Both the position numbers and the translations under genes were made by a program. A stretch of DNA of 64,000 nucleotides from Microbacterium marinum (GTDB lineage Bacteria > Actinomycetota > Actinomycetes > Actinomycetales > Microbacteriaceae), in NCBI RefSeq assembly GCF_014204835.1, contig NZ_JACHMD010000001.1:1240001-1304000 (forward strand), in the 5' to 3' direction. Shown in pieces: positions 48,337 through 58,105 of this stretch. The number at the start of each line of letters is the position of its first letter. The stretch's first letter is position 1. Below the pieces are notes generated by a model. It saw only the letters and a program-made list of their open reading frames with translations. It had not been told where the DNA came from and ran no database searches.

Positions 48337-49041
48337 ATGACCGACCTCATCGACACCACCGAGATGTATCTGCGCACCATCCTCGAGCTCGAGGAGGAGG
48401 GCATCACGCCCCTGCGCGCGCGCATCTCCGAGCGTCTCGGCCACTCCGGTCCGACGGTGTCGCAGACGATCGGCCGCATGGAGCGCGACGGCCTCGTGAT
48501 CGTCTCCGAGGTGCGCAAGCTGGAGCTCACGGATGCCGGTCGGCAGAAGGCTGTCGACGTCATGCGCAAGCACCGTCTTGCGGAGCGCCTGCTCAGCGAC
48601 GTGATCGGTCTGGATTGGGCCTACGTCCACGACGAGGCCTGCCGGTGGGAGCACGTGATGAGCGAGCTCGTGGAGCGTCGTCTCATCGAGCTGCTCGACC
48701 ACCCGACCGAGTCGCCGTACGGCAACCCGATCCCGGGCCTCGACCAGCTCGGCGACGTGCCGGCCAACACCTTCGACAACGGGGTGGTGGGTCTCGTGCG
48801 CCGCCTGAACGAGTCGGACGGGCCCATCACGGGCAGCGTGCGTCGCCTGGCGGAGCCGGTTCAGGTCGACCCGGAGCTGCTGACGCAGCTGCGCGACGCC
48901 GGTGTGATGCCCGGGGCGAGCGGTGCGTTCCGCTTCAGCGAGGGCTACGTCCTAGTGGAGATGGACGGCTCATCGGAGGCGCTGGAGCTGCCCGTCGAGG
49001 TGGCTTCGCACATCTTCATCGTCGACGCCCGCGCCGCCTGA
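48337..49041 (+). CDS. IdeR/DtxR-type iron-dependent regulator
   Basis: A 234-aa iron-sensing repressor. The N-terminal winged helix contains HSGPTVSQTIGRMERDGLV. Iron sites match DtxR: Met10 in MYLRTI, H-x3-E in KHRLAERL, H-x3-C-x2-EH in HDEACRWEH. The C-terminal SH3-like domain (about 150-230) includes FSEGYVLVEM. All metal ligands of the N-terminal sites are present, so Fe(II) binding is likely. I start at ATG 48337; a GTG one codon earlier is possible. Confidence 0.92.
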   Translation: MTDLIDTTEMYLRTILELEEEGITPLRARISERLGHSGPTVSQTIGRMERDGLVIVSEVRKLELTDAGRQKAVDVMRKHRLAERLLSDVIGLDWAYVHDEACRWEHVMSELVERRLIELLDHPTESPYGNPIPGLDQLGDVPANTFDNGVVGLVRRLNESDGPITGSVRRLAEPVQVDPELLTQLRDAGVMPGASGAFRFSEGYVLVEMDGSSEALELPVEVASHIFIVDARAA

Positions 49042-49205
49042 CTCGCGCGATCGCCCGTGCCGGCGGACCTGAACGTCCGCCGGGCATCGCCCGGGAGGCC
49101 GCGCCACCATGTGGATGAAGCGTGACTTATTCGTTACCTTCCGGTAGCCTCGGAAAGTCCAACGGCGAGAAGCCCGCCACGGACCGCTTCGCGAGTTGCC
49201 TCTCC

Positions 49206-49287
49206 GGCTCGTCATTCGCGCAGTGACACCCGTACATCTGTGCCCGACACTGAGTGCCGACGAGCCAGCATCCACCCCCCTGGATGC
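49206..49287 (+). promoter_or_regulatory. Structured leader of the M23 peptidase gene
   Basis: Paired segments: GGCTCGTC (49206-49213) with GACGAGCC (49259-49266), and inside it CAGTG (49221-49225) with CACTG (49248-49252). A second hairpin, GCATCCA with TGGATGC (49268-49287), has a loop of six C and lies 9 nt before the GGAGGA ribosome site. Such arrangement could regulate translation of the wall hydrolase. I do not see the c-di-AMP riboswitch consensus. Confidence 0.5.
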
Positions 49288-49306
49288 AGAGGCGCCGGAG
49301 GATAGC

Positions 49307-50194
49307 TTGGCTGAAGAGTTCCACCCGTCGACTGAAGTTTCTGAGGCGTCGACGTCCCCCCGTAAAGGCCGTCTCTTGCGCCGCACCGCCGCCAAGGCGC
49401 CTGCGACCCGTTCGAGCGCGAGCCGTCCCCACCCCGTCCGCAGCTTCGTGACCCTTGCCGCCGTCGCAGGCATGGTCGCGACGGTGGCGATCCCCGCCTT
49501 CGTGGCAGCCGACCGCGGCGACGTCGCCGAGGCGCGCACGCTGCAGCAGGTCTCCGCCGACGACGCCCAGTCGCTCGTCGTGGCGTCGGAGGCTACCCCC
49601 GAGGCTCTCGAGCGCGGAGGCTACTCGGCCACCACGCCCGAGGAGATCCAGGCGAAGAAGGACAAGGAAGCCGCCGAAGCCGCCGCCAAGGCAGCCCTCG
49701 CCGCGCGCCTCGCGGCAGCCGCGAGCGCGACCAGCTCGAGCTCGAGTTCCAGCTCCAGCTCCAGCTCGAGCTTCTCCAGTGCCGTGCCGCTCGTCGCTCC
49801 GGGCTCGGGGCTCGTGCGTCGCCCGCTGGCCCGCTTCGACAACTTCGGCACCCCCTACGCCGGCCACAAGGGCACCGACTACATGGACGGACGCGGCGAA
49901 GGCATCTACGCCGTCGCCGACGGCACGGTTGTCGCTTCGTCGGAGTCGGGACCGGGCTGGGGTGTGTACGTGAAGATCGCGCACAACATCAACGGCACGA
50001 ACGTCACCTCGCTCTACGCCCACATGGATTGGGGCACTCGCCGCGTCCAGGTCGGGCAGACGGTCTCGGCCGGTCAGCTCATCGGTCAGGTCGGCGACAC
50101 CGGTCGCGCCAACGGCACCCACCTGCACCTGGAGATCCGCGTGAACAACGGATACACCAACGCGGAGTCGTGGCTGCAGGCCAACGCCGGCTGA
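49307..50194 (+). CDS. Secreted M23 family peptidoglycan peptidase
   Basis: A 295-aa wall hydrolase. After a polar basic N terminus comes one membrane helix (FVTLAAVAGMVATVAIPAFVA, about 48-68). A charged helix of Ala/Lys/Glu and a poly-Ser tract of 12 or more residues lead to the LytM/M23 domain (about 180-295). Zinc and catalytic motifs are HKGTDYMDGRG, YAHMDWG and THLHLEI. I choose the TTG at 49307, which has GGAGGA 4 nt upstream; an upstream TTG at 49196 would overlap the structured leader. Confidence 0.87.
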   Translation: MAEEFHPSTEVSEASTSPRKGRLLRRTAAKAPATRSSASRPHPVRSFVTLAAVAGMVATVAIPAFVAADRGDVAEARTLQQVSADDAQSLVVASEATPEALERGGYSATTPEEIQAKKDKEAAEAAAKAALAARLAAAASATSSSSSSSSSSSSSFSSAVPLVAPGSGLVRRPLARFDNFGTPYAGHKGTDYMDGRGEGIYAVADGTVVASSESGPGWGVYVKIAHNINGTNVTSLYAHMDWGTRRVQVGQTVSAGQLIGQVGDTGRANGTHLHLEIRVNNGYTNAESWLQANAG

Positions 50195-50249
50195 CGACAC
50201 GCGAAGAACCGTTCTCCTGCTGTTCGCCCCGCGGCATCCCTGGGTGTAA

Positions 50250-50255
50250 TAGCCT
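50250..50255 (+). promoter_or_regulatory. -10 candidate of the small RNA
   Basis: TAGCCT (50250-50255), overlapping TGTAAT (50245-50250). Start of transcription is expected near 50262. Confidence 0.45.
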
Positions 50256-50261
50256 GACCCC

Positions 50262-50416
50262 GACGCTCGTTCGAGCCGAGGGGAAGCCGATGGACATTCA
50301 ACCCCGCATTCGCAACCGGAATGCGCTAGGTCGTTATGTGCTTCGGCATCGTGTGCACGATTGCCGCGACTTCGGTCGTGCGATTGAAGGCGCTGTCTTT
50401 TGACAGCGCCTTTTTT
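50262..50416 (+). ncRNA. Candidate structured small RNA or attenuated leader
   Basis: A GC-poor stretch of about 155 nt between the M23 peptidase and the HNH gene, packed with hairpins: GCTCG/CGAGC (50265-50276), CGCATTC/GAATGCG (50305-50325), CGGCATCGTG with CACGATTGCCG (50344-50366), CGCGAC/GTCGTG closed by a TTCG tetraloop (50365-50380), and an intrinsic terminator (50387-50416). It contains a 37-codon ORF (50290-50403), but its third codon positions are about half A/T, unlike real genes here, and its stop lies in the terminator loop. A free small RNA, or an attenuator for the HNH gene 86 nt downstream, is favoured. It matches no RNA family I recognise. Confidence 0.6.
50387..50416 (+). 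terminator. Strong intrinsic terminator
   Basis: AAGGCGCTGTC and GACAGCGCCTT enclose a TTTT loop and run into TTTTTT (50411-50416). It is the best-formed terminator in the window. The remaining 85 bp to the HNH gene show no other feature. Confidence 0.93.
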
Positions 50417-50501
50417 CGTGCCCGCACCTCCTCTGTTCGCTCTCGCGTCGGATAACCGGACAACCGCTGAAGCCGTCACGGCCGTTCGAGAGGAAACCCC
50501 T

Positions 50502-50999
50502 ATGCGCACCCTGGTGCTGAATGCCGGATACGAACCCTTGGCCGTCGTGTCGTTCAAGCGAGCGCTCGTGCTCGTGATGACCGACAAGGCGACCGTCATC
50601 GAACGGGTGGAGGGGGATCCGGTCTGGGCTGCGCACGACGTGTTCGATCGACCCGCCGTCATCCTGCTCACCCGCTACGTGCGCGTCCCGAACGGGCGCC
50701 GCGTGCCGGTGACCCGGCGCGGTGTGCTGCGGCGCGACGGGCACCGTTGCGCGTACTGCGGGAAGAGCGCGTCGACGATCGACCACGTGCTGCCGCGCTC
50801 CCGGGGTGGAGCGGATTCATGGGAGAACCTCGTTGCGGCATGTCTGCGCTGCAACAACATGAAGGGCGACCGGACGCCGCAGGAGATGCGGTGGGAGCTG
50901 CGGTGGCTGCCGATGCCACCCAGCGGCGCGCAATGGCGGGTGCGCGGCACCGAGCGCACCGAGCCGGCATGGGAGCCGTACCTGGCGCTCGCCGCCTAG
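50502..50999 (+). CDS. HNH endonuclease domain protein
   Basis: A 165-aa protein. The HNH nuclease fold (about residues 70-125) shows CAYCG and CLRCNNMKGDR zinc-type cysteine pairs with TIDHVLPRSRGG, the catalytic His segment. The N-terminal half (LVLNAGYEPLAVVSFKRAL) is conserved in actinobacterial relatives. These are chromosomal HNH proteins of unknown role, not clearly phage or restriction. The ATG has GAGGAAA upstream. It overlaps the convergent MFS gene by 4 nt. Confidence 0.9.
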   Translation: MRTLVLNAGYEPLAVVSFKRALVLVMTDKATVIERVEGDPVWAAHDVFDRPAVILLTRYVRVPNGRRVPVTRRGVLRRDGHRCAYCGKSASTIDHVLPRSRGGADSWENLVAACLRCNNMKGDRTPQEMRWELRWLPMPPSGAQWRVRGTERTEPAWEPYLALAA

Positions 51000-52228
51000 C
51001 CGCGGGACCGCTCCTCGTCTCCGTGCGCGGTGCCGCTCGCCGCGGTGCGGCGTGGGCGCAAGGTGAACGCGAGCAGCACGACGATGGCGCCGGCGATCGG
51101 GTAGACGATCAGCGCGGTGCGAAGGTCGGTCTGCTCGGCGAGCAGGCCGACGGCGGGCGGCGCGAAGAGGAAGCCGAGGCGCATGAGCCAGGCGAGGAAT
51201 GTGAGTCCCGACCCTGCGCGCAGACCCGGCATCTCGTCGGCGGCGTGCATCGCGGCGGGCACGATGGTCGCTGACCCGAAGCCGGCCGCGGCGAGCCCGA
51301 TGATCGTGCCGGGGACGGTCGGGAAGGCGAGCGCGAGCCCGAGGCCGAGGGCGATCAGGATGCCGCCGGCACGAGCGACGGCGACGGCGCCGAAGCGGTC
51401 GGTGAAGCGGTCGCCGAGCATCCGCCCGACGAACTGCGCGCCGATGAGCGCGATGTAGCCCGTCGCGGCGATCGCGCCGATCGCACCGAGGGAGTCGGAG
51501 AGGTACAGCGTCGACCAGGAGCTGCCGAGGTCCTCGACCATCGCGCCCGCGATCGCGATGACGACCAGCGCCGCGAGCAGCGCGATGGTGCGGATGCCGG
51601 GCCGCACGGCGGGGACGACGGGGGCTGCCCCGGCGGTGTCGTCGAGCGACTGCTCGCCGGTGCGCGGCAGGCAGAAGCGCCACGCGGTGAGGGCGGATGC
51701 CGAGAACACCGCCCCCGCGATCGCGAGGTGCACGGGCACCGGAACGCTCAGGGCGATGGCGCCGGCGGCCATCGCGCCGCCGAGGACGGCGCCGACGGAC
51801 CAGATCGCGTGCAGGGAGTTGATGATCGAGCGGCCGAATCGGCGCTGCACCTCGAGGCCGTGGGTGTTCTGTCCGACGTCGACGATGGCGTCGAGTGCGC
51901 CGCCGAGGAACATCGGGACGGCGAACAGGATTGCGGTGGGCGCGAAGCCCGCGCACAGCAGGGCGATCGCGATGAGGACAGTGCCGACGGCGGCGACGGG
52001 TGCGGAGCCGAACCGGCGCATGAGGGGCGCGGCGAGCAGGCCCAGGAGGAAGGAGCCGAGCGGCCAGGCGGCCAGGAGCAGCCCGTAGACGGCGGTGTCG
52101 ACGCCGAGCGTCTCTTTGATCTCGGGCAGGCGCGGCACGATGTTCGCGAAGAGGGCGCCGTTCGTGAGGAACAGGGCGGAGACCGCGATGCGGGCGCGGC
52201 GGACCTCGAGAGGGATTGCGGAGGGCAT
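50996..52228 (-). CDS. MFS transporter
   Basis: A 410-aa transporter with 12 predicted helices in two halves of six. Family loops include GSFLLGLLAAPLMRRFG between helices 2 and 3 and GRMLGDRFTDRFGAVAVAR in the second half. The substrate is unknown. It lacks adjacent regulator or biosynthesis genes. ATG start at 52228. Confidence 0.87.
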   Translation of the reverse strand: MPSAIPLEVRRARIAVSALFLTNGALFANIVPRLPEIKETLGVDTAVYGLLLAAWPLGSFLLGLLAAPLMRRFGSAPVAAVGTVLIAIALLCAGFAPTAILFAVPMFLGGALDAIVDVGQNTHGLEVQRRFGRSIINSLHAIWSVGAVLGGAMAAGAIALSVPVPVHLAIAGAVFSASALTAWRFCLPRTGEQSLDDTAGAAPVVPAVRPGIRTIALLAALVVIAIAGAMVEDLGSSWSTLYLSDSLGAIGAIAATGYIALIGAQFVGRMLGDRFTDRFGAVAVARAGGILIALGLGLALAFPTVPGTIIGLAAAGFGSATIVPAAMHAADEMPGLRAGSGLTFLAWLMRLGFLFAPPAVGLLAEQTDLRTALIVYPIAGAIVVLLAFTLRPRRTAASGTAHGDEERSRG

Positions 52229-53108: not shown

Positions 53109-54692
53109 ATGGATCCCGCGCTCGTCGACACCGGCACCGAGCCGGTCCGCAGCCTCGTCGTGTGGGTGCCGGACTGGCCGGTCGTCGCGCTCGCCCGCGA
53201 GGGGCTCGCCGAGGCCGAGCAGCCGATCGCCGTCTTCGCGAAGGGGATGGTCGCCGCGACCTCCCCGGCCGCGCGCGCCGACGGCGTGCGACGGGGAATG
53301 CGGCGACGCGACGCGCAGGCGCGATGCCCGCAGCTGCAGGTGGTCGACGCCGACGAGTCGCGCGACCACCGCACGTTCGCACCGCTCATCGCCCGGCTCG
53401 AGGAGATCGCCCCCGGTGTGCAGCTGCGCGAGCCGGGACTGTGCGCGCTGCGGGTGAAGGGACCCGCCCGGTTCTACGGCGGTGAGGCGGGCGCGGCGAC
53501 GGCGCTCACCGGTGCGCTCGCCGAGCTCGGTCTGCTCGATGTGCGTGCGGGGGTGGGCGATGGCCCGTTCACGGCGGAGCAGGCCGCCCGCACCACCGGT
53601 CCGGATGCTCCGCTGCGGATCGTGCCGCCGGGAGCGGCGGCCGCGTTCCTGTCGCCCCTGCCGGTGACGGCGCTCGAAGACGAGGCGGTCGCGAGCCTGT
53701 TCGCACGCCTCGGCATCCACACCCTCGGTCAGCTCGCTGCACTGCCGCCTGCGCGGCTCGTCGAACGCCTCGGTCCCCGCGGGGCGCGATTGCATGCGCT
53801 CGCGTCGGGGCTCGACTCGCAGCCGGTGCAGCCGCGCACGCCACCGCCCGAGCTCGAGCGCGAGGTGAGCTTCGAGCCGCCGCTCGAGATCGCCGATCAG
53901 GTGGCGTTCGGCATCCGTCTCGCGGCGGAGCAGTTCATCTCGGGGCTCGGTGCGGTCGACCTCGTCTGCACCGAACTCCGAGTCGCGCTGACGGGCGACC
54001 GTGGCGACCACAGCGAGCGGGTGTGGCTGCACCCCGGAGCATTCGATGCGGCCGCCGTCGTCGACCGGGTGCGCTGGCAGCTCGCCGAGCGTGGGCTCAA
54101 GAGTGCCGTTGGAAAGGTGCGGATCGCACCCGAGAAGGTGGACGCGGCATCCCATCACGTGAAGGGGCTGTTCGGCTCGGGTCCCGAGGAACGCGTGCAC
54201 TCGGCGCTCTCGCGCGTACAGGCGATGCTCGGACACACGGGCGTCGTCACCCCGCAGGTCGGTGGCGGCCGGTGGCTCGCCGAGCGGCAGGTGCTCGTGC
54301 CGTGGGGCGACCGCGCGGTCATCGCCGAGCGGGCACGGCCGTGGCCGGGGAGTCTGCCGGACCCGCTGCCGGCGACCGTGTTCCCCGAACCGGTCCCGGT
54401 CGCCGTGATCGACCGCGACGACGACATGGTCGCGGTCGACGGGCGCGGCGAGCTGACGGCCGAGCCGGTCGCGCTGATCCTCCCAGGAGCGCCGGACGCG
54501 TCGGGGGCGCGCCGCCCGCGGCATCCGCGTCGTCTGGAATCGTGGGCGGGTCCGTGGCCCGTCATGGAGCGGGGGTGGGATGCCGCGCGCGCGCGCCGCG
54601 CGCACCGGTTCCAGGTCGTCGACGAGGCGCAGACGGCCTGGCTGCTGGTATGCGAGGAGGGCGTCTGGCACGCCGAGGGACGGTACGACTGA
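53109..54692 (+). CDS. imuB: ImuB, inactive Y-family polymerase
   Basis: A 527-aa protein of the Y-polymerase fold. The catalytic acidic motif of true Y polymerases is replaced by LVVWVPDWPVVAL, so it is not expected to synthesise DNA. Palm, fingers and little-finger regions (VRRGMRRRDAQARCPQL, GLCALRVKG, LGPRGARLHALASG) are recognisable, with a C-terminal tail that recruits the clamp in characterised ImuB. It acts as an adaptor for DnaE2. It shares one base (TGATG) with dnaE2. Confidence 0.9.
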   Translation: MDPALVDTGTEPVRSLVVWVPDWPVVALAREGLAEAEQPIAVFAKGMVAATSPAARADGVRRGMRRRDAQARCPQLQVVDADESRDHRTFAPLIARLEEIAPGVQLREPGLCALRVKGPARFYGGEAGAATALTGALAELGLLDVRAGVGDGPFTAEQAARTTGPDAPLRIVPPGAAAAFLSPLPVTALEDEAVASLFARLGIHTLGQLAALPPARLVERLGPRGARLHALASGLDSQPVQPRTPPPELEREVSFEPPLEIADQVAFGIRLAAEQFISGLGAVDLVCTELRVALTGDRGDHSERVWLHPGAFDAAAVVDRVRWQLAERGLKSAVGKVRIAPEKVDAASHHVKGLFGSGPEERVHSALSRVQAMLGHTGVVTPQVGGGRWLAERQVLVPWGDRAVIAERARPWPGSLPDPLPATVFPEPVPVAVIDRDDDMVAVDGRGELTAEPVALILPGAPDASGARRPRHPRRLESWAGPWPVMERGWDAARARRAHRFQVVDEAQTAWLLVCEEGVWHAEGRYD

Positions 54693-57600
54693 TGGGGTGG
54701 GGCAACAACCCGTCGGTCTCGTGGTCGGAGATGGAGCGGATCCTCAGCGACCGGCGCCGGCCCGAGGGAGCGCCGTCGGGTGCGGACGGCGGTGACAGTC
54801 CGGCCTGGTCGCACAAGCGCGGAAAGTACCGTGCGCCCGAGATCGAGCGTCCGACCGAGACCGTGCCGTACGCCGAACTGCACGCGCACTCGTCGTTCTC
54901 GTTCCTCGACGGCGCCTCGTCGCCGGAGGAGCTCGTCGAGGAGGCGGAACGGCTGGGCCTGCACGCCCTCGCGGTGACCGACCACGATGGGTTCTACGGC
55001 ATCGTCCGCTTCGCCGAGGCGGCGGAGCACCTGCAGCTGCAGACCGTCTTCGGTGCCGAGCTGTCGCTCGGTCTGCCCGGTCCGCAGAACGGTGAGCCAG
55101 ACCCGCACGGCAGCCATCTGCTGGTGCTCGCCCGGGGTGAAGAGGGCTACCACCGGCTTGCCGCCGCGATCACGCACGCGCAGCTGTCGGGGGGCGAGAA
55201 GGGGCGCCCGGTCTATGATCTCCACGATCTGGCGGACCGCGCTGGAGGTCACTGGCAGATCTTGACGGGATGCCGCAAGGGCGCCGTCCGGCGGACGCTC
55301 GCCGAGGACGGGCCGGCTGCCGCGGCCTACGAGCTCGACCGGCTCGTCGACCTGTTCGGGCCCGAGCGGGTCGATGTCGAGCTCATCGATCAGGGCGCGC
55401 CGACCGACTCGCGTGACAACGACGTGCTGGCCGCGCTCGCCGCGGAGCGCGGGCTGCCGATCGTCGCGACGAACAACGTGCACTACGCCGTGCCCGAGAA
55501 AGTGCACCTCGCGGCGGCGGTCGCGGCGGTGCGGGCCAACCGCGGCCTCGACGAGCTCGACGGGTGGCTGCCCTCGCACGCGAGCGCGCATCTGCGCTCG
55601 GGCGCCGAGATGGCGCGGCGGTTCCGGCGGTATCCGGGGGCGGTGGAGCGCACGGTCGAGCTCGCCGACGAGCTCGCGTTCCCGCTGCGCCGCGCGAAGC
55701 CCGCGCTGCCGAAGATGCAGGTGCCCGAGGGGCACACGCCGATGACGTGGCTGCGTCACCTCGTGTGGGAGGCGGTGCCCCGCAAATACCCGGATGCCAC
55801 CGACGCGAACCGTGCGCGCATCGAGAAGGAGCTCGGCGTCATCGAGCAGAAGGACTTCCCCGGGTACTTCCTCATCGTGCACGGCATCGTGCAGGAGGCG
55901 CGGCGCCGCGGCATCCTGTGCCAGGGGCGGGGGTCGGCTGCGAACAGTGCCGTCTGCTATCTGCTCGATATCACGGCGATCGACTCGATCTTCTACAATC
56001 TGCCGTTCGAGCGGTTCCTGTCAGCGCTGCGCGACGAGGAGCCCGACATCGACGTCGACTTCGACTCGGACCGGCGCGAGGAGATCATCCAGTGGGTCTA
56101 CGAGACGTACGGGCGTGAGCGGGCGGCGCAGGTCGCGAACGTCATCCAGTACCGGCCGAAGAACGCGGTCCGCGACATGGCGAAGGCGCTCGGGCACTCG
56201 CCGGGGCAGCAGGATGCCTGGTCTAAGCAGGTTGAGCGCTGGGGTGCGGTGCTCGACACCCCGCCCGACCATGACATCCCCGAGCGGGTGGTCGCGTACG
56301 CGGGGGAGCTGCTGAAGGCGCCTCGGCATCTCGGCATCCATTCGGGAGGGATGGTGCTCACCGATCGGCCGGTGGGGGAGGTGGTGCCGATCGAGCATGC
56401 GCGCATGAAGAACCGCACCGTCATCCAGTGGGACAAGGACGATGCCGCGTGGATGGGGCTCGTGAAGTTCGACCTGCTGGGGCTCGGGATGCTCGCCGCG
56501 CTCCAGTACTGCTTCGACATGATCGCGGCGGCGACGGGGGAGCAGTGGTCGCTCGACACCATGCCGAAGGAGGAGGCGGCGGTCTACGACATGCTGTGCC
56601 GCGCCGATTCGATCGGCGTGTTCCAGGTCGAGTCCCGCGCGCAGATGGGCCTGTTGCCCCGCCTGCAGCCGCGGAAGTTCTACGACCTCGTCGTCGAGAT
56701 CGCGCTCATCCGTCCGGGGCCGATCCAGGGCGGCGCGGTGCACCCGTTCGTGCGGCGCAAGCTCGGCGACGAGCCGATCACCTACGCGCACCCGAAGCTC
56801 AAGCCGGTGCTGGAGCGGACGCTCGGCATCCCAGTGTTCCAGGAGCAGCTCATGCAGATGGGCATGGCGATCGGTGACCTCTCGGGGGAGGATGCCGACC
56901 TGCTGCGCCGTGCGATGGGATCGAAGCGCGGGATCGAGCGGATCGACTCGCTGAAGAAGAAGCTGTACGAGGGGATGGCGCGCAACGGCCTGACCGGCAA
57001 GGCTGCCGACGACATCTACGTGAAGATCCAGGCGTTCGCGAACTTCGGTTTCGCCGAGAGCCACTCACTGTCGTTCGGTCTGCTCGTCTACGCGTCGTCG
57101 TGGCTGAAGCTGCACTATCCGGCGGCGTTCCTCGCGGCGCTGCTGCGCGCGCAGCCGATGGGCTTCTACTCGCCCGCGACCCTGACCGCCGACGCCCGCC
57201 GGCACGGGGTGGAGGTGCGTCGCCCCGACCTGCTCGCGTCGGGGGTGGACGCGGGGCTCGAGCCGGTGTCGGAGTCCGCTGCGGAGCTTCGCCGCCCGCC
57301 GACGGGCCGGGACGCCTGCGCCGATCGTCTTCAGCCACCCGTGCCGGAGTTCGACCGGTCGCTGCCGGATGAGTCGGCCGCCCACCGGCGCGACGGGGAG
57401 TTCGCCGTGCGGCTGGGGCTCGCGTCGGTGACGGGCATCGGGGTACCGCTGGCGACGAAAATCGTGGCGGAGCGTGACGCGTCCGGTCCGTATCGAGACC
57501 TGCGCGACCTCGTACGTCGGACCGGTGCGACGGCGGCGCAGCTGGAGGCCCTCGCCACGGCCGGAGCCTTCGAGGGCCTCGGCATCAGCCGGCGCGAGGG

Positions 57601-58105
57601 CATCTGGCTGGCCGGGGATGCCGCGCAGGACCGGCAGGAGTTCCTCGAAGGGTCGCTGGTGTCGGTGCAGCCGCCGCTGTTCCCCGACCAGTCCAGCTAC
57701 GACGTCCTCGCCGCCGATCTGTGGGCGACCGGTCTGTCGTCGGATGACCATCCGCTCACGCACTACCGGTCGCAGCTCCATGCACGCGGGGTGATCACCT
57801 CCCGCGGCATGCGCGTGCATGAGGTGGGTCGGCGCATCGAGGTCGCGGGCCTGGTCACGCACCGGCAGCGGCCGGCGACGGCATCCGGCATCACGTTCCT
57901 GAACCTCGAGGACGAGCACGGTGTGATGAACGTCATCTGCTCGGTCGGGGTGTGGAACAGGTATCGGCGCATCCTGCGCGACAGTCCTGCCCTCATCGCA
58001 CGCGGCATGCTCGAGCGCTCGCCGGAAGGGGTCACCAACCTCGTCGCCGACGCGTTCGACGACCTGCGCGTCGGGGTGCAGCACCGCTCGCGCGATTTCC
58101 GGTGA
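54692..58105 (+). CDS. dnaE2: Error-prone DNA polymerase DnaE2
   Basis: A 1137-aa C-family polymerase for damage-induced translesion synthesis. The N-terminal PHP domain begins AELHAHSSFSFLDG. The palm acidic motif is PDIDVDFDSDRREEI. NFGFAESHSLSFG and an OB domain near the C terminus (IEVAGLVTHRQRP) match the family. The start ATG 54692 overlaps the imuB stop, giving coupled translation. The cassette imuA'-imuB-dnaE2 is the known mycobacterial mutasome set. Confidence 0.95.
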   Translation: MGWGNNPSVSWSEMERILSDRRRPEGAPSGADGGDSPAWSHKRGKYRAPEIERPTETVPYAELHAHSSFSFLDGASSPEELVEEAERLGLHALAVTDHDGFYGIVRFAEAAEHLQLQTVFGAELSLGLPGPQNGEPDPHGSHLLVLARGEEGYHRLAAAITHAQLSGGEKGRPVYDLHDLADRAGGHWQILTGCRKGAVRRTLAEDGPAAAAYELDRLVDLFGPERVDVELIDQGAPTDSRDNDVLAALAAERGLPIVATNNVHYAVPEKVHLAAAVAAVRANRGLDELDGWLPSHASAHLRSGAEMARRFRRYPGAVERTVELADELAFPLRRAKPALPKMQVPEGHTPMTWLRHLVWEAVPRKYPDATDANRARIEKELGVIEQKDFPGYFLIVHGIVQEARRRGILCQGRGSAANSAVCYLLDITAIDSIFYNLPFERFLSALRDEEPDIDVDFDSDRREEIIQWVYETYGRERAAQVANVIQYRPKNAVRDMAKALGHSPGQQDAWSKQVERWGAVLDTPPDHDIPERVVAYAGELLKAPRHLGIHSGGMVLTDRPVGEVVPIEHARMKNRTVIQWDKDDAAWMGLVKFDLLGLGMLAALQYCFDMIAAATGEQWSLDTMPKEEAAVYDMLCRADSIGVFQVESRAQMGLLPRLQPRKFYDLVVEIALIRPGPIQGGAVHPFVRRKLGDEPITYAHPKLKPVLERTLGIPVFQEQLMQMGMAIGDLSGEDADLLRRAMGSKRGIERIDSLKKKLYEGMARNGLTGKAADDIYVKIQAFANFGFAESHSLSFGLLVYASSWLKLHYPAAFLAALLRAQPMGFYSPATLTADARRHGVEVRRPDLLASGVDAGLEPVSESAAELRRPPTGRDACADRLQPPVPEFDRSLPDESAAHRRDGEFAVRLGLASVTGIGVPLATKIVAERDASGPYRDLRDLVRRTGATAAQLEALATAGAFEGLGISRREGIWLAGDAAQDRQEFLEGSLVSVQPPLFPDQSSYDVLAADLWATGLSSDDHPLTHYRSQLHARGVITSRGMRVHEVGRRIEVAGLVTHRQRPATASGITFLNLEDEHGVMNVICSVGVWNRYRRILRDSPALIARGMLERSPEGVTNLVADAFDDLRVGVQHRSRDFR

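Follow-up and report, generated by a model that had tools for sequence, protein, structure and literature searches.

The window analyzed in this study, the whole stretch of 64,000 nt, lies in an actinobacterial genome of 3.12 Mb. On its + strand, a DtxR-like gene precedes an M23 peptidase gene ending at position 50194, which is followed by the element described here and then by the gene for an HNH nuclease, the closest named protein to which was from M. dauci (Microbacterium; 94% identity). The features assigned to the element and to the HNH gene are listed in Table 1. Just past the M23 stop codon, the heptamer GACACGC (50196-50202) was retained in most of 30 genus loci; some of these, L009 and L020, contain a long inverted repeat in which it makes up the 3' arm, and no partner arm was seen in the window.

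Table 1. Features of the leader and the HNH gene in the window (positions counted from the first letter of the window; uORF, leader ORF)
Feature	Position	Strand	Evidence
-10 element TAGCCT (TANNNT) of the leader promoter	50250..50255	+	52/52 relatives; aligned in 30 genus loci
Shine-Dalgarno-like purine run GAGGGGA of the uORF	50278..50284	+	purine run ahead of the uORF start in alignments
5' strand GCCG, possible helix with 50344-50347, beside the uORF start codon	50286..50289	+	permutation test, suggestive
uORF, 37 codons and stop TGA (50401-50403)	50290..50403	+	frame conservation, stop placement
Hairpin 1, within the uORF, with a 7-nt loop	50305..50325	+	covariation, loop motif
3' strand CGGC, possible start-codon helix	50344..50347	+	same permutation test as 50286..50289
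UUCG-capped hairpin directly 5' of the terminator	50365..50380	+	position kept, stems vary
Intrinsic terminator stem-loop	50388..50411	+	covariation, folding z
U-tract of the terminator	50411..50416	+	sequence
Hairpin 2, 5' of the HNH Shine-Dalgarno, with loop AAGCCGT (AGCC[AG] core)	50464..50481	+	covariation
Shine-Dalgarno GAGAGGA of the HNH gene	50488..50494	+	alignment
HNH nuclease gene, 165 aa, N-terminal PLMP-like fold, C-terminal HNH	50502..50999	+	

The initial annotation described the region as a structured RNA of no assigned class, and both parts of this description were borne out. Rfam covariance models gave no match at gathering score over the window and none at E<=5 for 50190-50520; a known riboswitch class was ruled out on this basis, and a tRNA search also gave no match. 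HEARO is one of the Rfam families, and the test would cover omega-RNA/HEARO as well. The segment 50252-50416 folded at -76.9 kcal/mol versus -56.4 +/- 4.2 kcal/mol in shuffles (z -4.85; 0 of 200 shuffles as good), and the excess came chiefly from the terminator (-19.7 kcal/mol, z -6.98, 0 of 200 shuffles as good), which had been called strong, and from hairpin 1 (z -2.74, 3 of 200 shuffles as good). A simple consensus terminator scan of 49000-51100 did not list this terminator. The UUCG-capped hairpin was also present; the 5'-most hairpin (50259-50282) folded no better than shuffles (z -0.09). A hairpin of varying sequence occupied a place similar to that of the UUCG-capped hairpin in most of 32 near relatives, reaching P<=0.05 against shuffles, sequence by sequence, in only 6 of the 32. 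The window's copy of hairpin 2 alone also folded no better than shuffles (z -0.22). Because the 5'-most hairpin and the window's hairpin 2 are unremarkable alone, the case depends on comparison.

We read 100 family loci upstream of HNH, one of which was a repeat of the window. In 90 of the 100, the top-scoring hairpin with a T-tract was located 64-122 nt upstream of the HNH start. From the 99 distinct loci, 13 that failed automatic detection (leaving 86), 16 in which inspection by eye showed hairpin 1 to be wrong or missing (leaving 70), and 18 near-duplicates were dropped, and the resulting 52 aligned, dereplicated Microbacteriaceae loci were thus preselected for hairpin 1 and the terminator before covariation was counted. 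Taken together, hairpin 1 and the terminator were paired in 92.5% of cells, a percentage biased upward because the loci were chosen for these hairpins. The two-sided changes are less biased. They occurred in 14 of the 18 pairs (6/7 in hairpin 1; 8/11 in the terminator, with 97.7% of its cells paired) and amounted to 71 cells versus 20.1 in shuffles that carried no control for relatedness (0 of 500 as high). The covariation score of 0.306 fell to at most 0.146 when the partners were slid. The check for covariation in orthologous loci that the initial annotation had called for therefore came out in favor of a conserved structure. The hairpin 1 loop followed the consensus N[AC]ACC[AG]N, with the motif in 47 of the 52 loci; the window's own loop, GCAACCG, deviates. 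The GCCG/CGGC helix beside the uORF start codon had an exact complement in 21 of the 52 loci versus 13.4 after permutation (2 of 5000 as high), which, with relatedness uncontrolled, is suggestive only.

The same loci were informative on the reading frame. As initially described, the 37-codon ORF lies in a GC-poor island (56% GC versus 70% in the window) and ends inside the terminator, with its stop codon in the loop and 3' arm. The initial annotation favored RNA function over the ORF, and here the comparison pointed the other way. The uORF frame was open over its first 66 nt in 52 of 52 loci; the other frames were stopped in 23 and 13. After hairpin 1, substitutions were conservative in the uORF frame alone, with a mean BLOSUM score of +0.24 versus -0.32 and -0.50 in the other frames. 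Within hairpin 1, another frame outscored that of the uORF in substitutions, as is expected where RNA pairing dominates. In some relatives, the uORF carries insertions (3 and 15 nt) that preserve the frame. The core peptide reads roughly I-x-T-x-D/N-A-(L/R)-G/A-x-F/Y-x-I/L-R-H. Beyond nt 66, no frame was constrained in the 52 loci; conservation of the frame as protein, named at the outset as evidence against the RNA reading, thus held over roughly the first 21 codons but not beyond. The first stop codon after nt 66 fell at -4 to -2 from the terminator GGC (the base) in 20 of 52 loci and at +11 to +13 (the loop) in another 20. In total, the in-frame stop codon lay at one of these two places in 40/52 loci, versus 4 (1+3) and 7 (5+2) in the other frames; 9/52 uORFs extended past +20. 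Because its stop codons are placed on the terminator, the ORF appears to be selected for its end point. We examined codon usage in the core within the genus, and the measures were mixed between frames (geometric mean 0.33 in frame versus 0.52 and 0.32; rare-codon share 6.5% versus 1.0% and 3.5%); a general rare-codon stretch was not upheld. On these comparative grounds, the ORF between the promoter and terminator appears to be under selection for translation.

The hexamer that had been proposed as the element's own -10 element was also retained by its relatives. All 52 loci had the pattern TANNNT at 22-62 nt upstream of the uORF (15.4 expected from shuffles), but only 2 of 52 had it between the U-tract and 7 nt before HNH (15.1 expected), and it was absent from the last 55 nt scanned before HNH (0/52; 11.0 expected). 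Leader DNA was matched, at least in part, in 125 of 149 genus genomes, and the 30 loci found through leader DNA alone all had HNH downstream. Across the family, HNH was matched in 226 of 249 genomes and 76 of 85 genera (for 9 genomes the match scored no better than E 2e-7 to 3e-4 and probably represents a different HNH protein); the leader model matched 206 of the 249 genomes at E<=1, weak matches included. Among 20 listed genomes of the 23 in the family that gave no HNH match, 15 had no leader match and 5 had only weak ones of E 0.002-0.19, the best at 0.0022. The gene upstream in 59 loci varied (M23 in 33, DtxR in 7, and in 19 a gene that we take to be NlpC/P60-like), while the leader tracked HNH. 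Because of this tracking, the placement of the -10 element, and the changing upstream neighbor, a cis-acting leader is much likelier than a free RNA. We conclude that 50250-50416 most likely serves the HNH gene as its conserved 5' leader, rather than being a free small RNA. Such a leader family stands before HNH in most Microbacteriaceae genomes searched and has no Rfam counterpart; its parts run in the order promoter, coding hairpin, terminator, second hairpin, and nuclease.

An intrinsic terminator before the regulated gene is expected of a uORF-coupled attenuator and was found. The antiterminator that sequesters the terminator 5' arm in classical trp/his/ilv attenuators was not found in 70 loci: the best upstream partner of this arm formed a mean duplex of -12.2 kcal/mol versus -13.7 kcal/mol in mononucleotide shuffles, that is, weaker on average than the shuffles. 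The usual antiterminator scheme is therefore unsupported, and masking of the terminator is favored over an alternative hairpin. Because the stop codon lies on the terminator, masking by a ribosome is the simplest scheme. We propose, with a probability of approximately 0.65, that the leader controls HNH through translation-coupled premature termination of transcription. The transcript would start approximately 7 nt past 50255, and a ribosome would load onto the uORF. If no ribosome followed close behind RNA polymerase, the terminator (50388-50416) would form and a transcript of approximately 155 nt would be released; a ribosome reaching the stop codon on the terminator would cover its 5' arm, and the polymerase would then read through into HNH. 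Slow codons and hairpin 1 may pace the ribosome relative to the polymerase. We infer the direction of this switch (translation permits read-through), its signal, and the existence of the transcript; the conservation, covariation, frame, stop placement, absence of any further conserved -10 element, and linkage to HNH are observed. The arrangement suggests a chromosomal IshB-like nuclease that is off by default and released by translation.

This scheme resembles that of pyrBI and ampC, in which a translating ribosome masks the terminator; there too, a leader ORF ends on the terminator and an alternative antiterminator hairpin is not needed. The leader described here differs in its gene and sequence, in an extra conserved hairpin within the ORF, and in a second one before the gene start. 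The ilvB1 attenuator of M. tuberculosis likewise has an actinobacterial uORF with regulatory codons and a Rho-independent terminator before the gene; it is described as relying on mutually exclusive terminator and antiterminator structures and on amino-acid supply (PMC13236596), whereas the search here gave no antiterminator and the gene concerned encodes a nuclease. The same source cites a uORF attenuator of whiB7/wblC, which, judged by its title, shares uORF-controlled transcription in Actinobacteria but concerns an unrelated gene. Literature searches, which covered subscription papers only to a small extent, returned no leader or attenuator of this HNH gene.

Sampling was extended beyond the family; families are numbered here, and f1 is that of the window. 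HNH was matched in 139 of 198 genomes of the order at E<=0.001, some of the matches being other HNH proteins, and we read 56 loci (L111-L166) from other families of this order. In f15, His-rich uORFs cross the terminator and end 16 nt inside HNH (12/12). Including these, uORFs running through the terminator and overlapping the HNH start were found at 12 f15, 6 f7, and 3 f16 loci; among the ORFs examined, 6/6 from f7 and 3/8 from f16 have a stop codon that overlaps the start codon of HNH. The leader peptides at L115-L118, L121, L122, L125, L148, and L158-L161 are His-rich, several HHHxVHHHH-like, and overlap the HNH start by 16 nt; the leader ORFs at L135-L137, L162, and L163 (f7) contain AUA, the rarest Ile codon, three or four times in frame. 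The uORF-terminator pair was not seen in the loci read from f2, f5, f6, and f9, and those from f8 and f19 were ambiguous. A search across the class yielded 39 upstream regions that could be used, two of which were repeats from the same order, and none of the remaining 37 loci from other orders showed the pair by eye.

One rival reading, supported by the codon content of these uORFs, is a classical codon-sensing attenuator, in which a ribosome stalled at AUA or His codons would refold the RNA and scarce charged tRNA would switch HNH on. In-frame ATA was enriched both in the 52 f1 uORFs (36 versus 3 and 2 in the other frames) and in f7, f15, and f16 (31 versus 5 and 1, in 26 uORFs chosen from the 56 loci for a clear start and Shine-Dalgarno sequence), whereas only 7 of 16275 codons in the genes of the window are ATA; His runs such as HHHxVHHHH occur in f15. 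Stop codons on the terminator, as found here, differ from the arrangement in classical attenuators, and this reading lacks an antiterminator for the terminator 5' arm. Moreover, the window's own uORF has no AUA, the codons concerned vary from family to family, and the need to pair with the start codon may have imposed AUA in f1. M. tuberculosis ilvB1 does work with such a uORF (PMC13236596). We consider codon sensing unlikely at this locus.

Two further readings concern a free small RNA and a small protein. Between the free small RNA and the terminator-based switch that the initial annotation left side by side, the switch for HNH is the better reading. A trans-acting RNA that merely preceded HNH and ended at its own terminator would account for the promoter-like -10 element and the strong terminator; however, it would leave the translated-looking frame with its stop on the terminator aside, as well as an HNH gene with no other conserved -10 element, and in the 20 listed genomes that gave no HNH match, leader matches never went below E 0.002. 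It was rejected on the last ground (leader absent or weak, E>=0.002) and is very improbable. A gene for a functional small protein, with RNA structure being secondary, fits the core peptide conserved in frame (about IxTxDARxxFxxRH), but after codon 22 no frame shows a coding signal while the terminator-placed end is kept, and the peptides of other families appear unrelated; we regard this reading as the least probable. Termination coupled to translation of the uORF remains the reading that we prefer.

Hairpin 2 showed two-sided changes in 11 of 11 pairs, with a covariation of 0.362 versus 0.122 (0 of 500 shuffles as high). Its cells were paired in 79.7% of cases overall (inner helix 91.2%, outer helix 66.7%), and its loop was AGCC[AG] in 47 of 52 loci; the hairpin 1 loop motif [AC]ACC[AG], also found in 47/52 but not in the window, is related to it. 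By a fixed rule, 84 of 108 f1 loci have hairpin 2, where 3.0 would be expected. Elsewhere in the order, it was found in f6 (5/8), f16 (4/9, where L119 and L120 are near-identical), f9 (2/3, one match with a 4-bp stem only), and f17 (1/1), and once each in f7 (1/7) and f8 (1/8). In other orders of the class, it was found in f26 (1/1), f37 (2/2), f44 (2/2), and the single f47 genome (L207, L223); the single f49 genome (L193, L226) lacked it. Across families, the loop was the same and the stems differed. The fixed rule found none in f15 (0/12), f36 (0/14), f22 (0/3), f29 (0/3), f35 (0/2), and f31 (0/2), and hairpin 2 was rejected as a universal feature. The f6 loci L112-L114, L123, and L133, where the uORF and terminator were unseen, retain an AGCCG-loop hairpin before HNH with stems such as GAGGGC/GCCCTC.

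A hairpin-2 model applied to 100 genomes gave 59 matches below E 0.002, one per genome, with weaker ones following. By eye, 57 of the 59 lay at the HNH start or beside a leader match, and the idea that hairpin 2 regulates other genes was thereby left unsupported; the HNH coordinate was lacking for the other two (G158, G240). A second, weaker match (E 0.002) occurred at G214:C22:11917-11984, on a contig other than that of the HNH locus.

The HNH protein had only HNH-type matches in Pfam and no RuvC, and D94, H95, N109, C83, C86, C114, and C117 were invariant in 65 aligned sequences. Its N-terminal part had no match by sequence search, and its fold resembled that of the PLMP domain of IscB/IsrB. 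In 2021, Altae-Tran is said to have described IshB as PLMP plus HNH without RuvC; judged from its sequence, the protein combines an HNH domain bearing catalytic residues with the lack of RuvC, as IshB does. It also shares the size and, as fold comparison suggests, the domain order of IshB; the gene differs in being chromosomal in most Microbacteriaceae genomes searched and in having a regulatory leader. IshB-like proteins have been named as possible HNH donors (PMC12477157). In IsrB, the PLMP domain contacts a terminal hairpin that holds the Shine-Dalgarno sequence of the gene (PMC9581776, PMC9640706). In these systems, as here, a structured RNA lies immediately 5' of the gene for a nuclease whose N-terminus is PLMP-like; the present locus differs in having no RuvC and no Rfam match and in a leader that encodes a uORF, with no guide or pseudoknot shown. 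By analogy, the IshB-like protein might bind its own AGCCR hairpin and the [AC]ACC[AG] hairpin of the leader through PLMP and so shut down its own translation and that of the uORF, a tentative idea that we consider rather doubtful. If it is true, such self-binding could be the origin of omega-RNA recognition in IsrB and IscB and hence Cas9, and if the PLMP-like domain reads hairpin 2, the origin of omega-RNA binding turns into a question for the bench. A few kb downstream of HNH lie two long ORFs (53109-58105), which we take to resemble ImuB and DnaE2 (mutasome).
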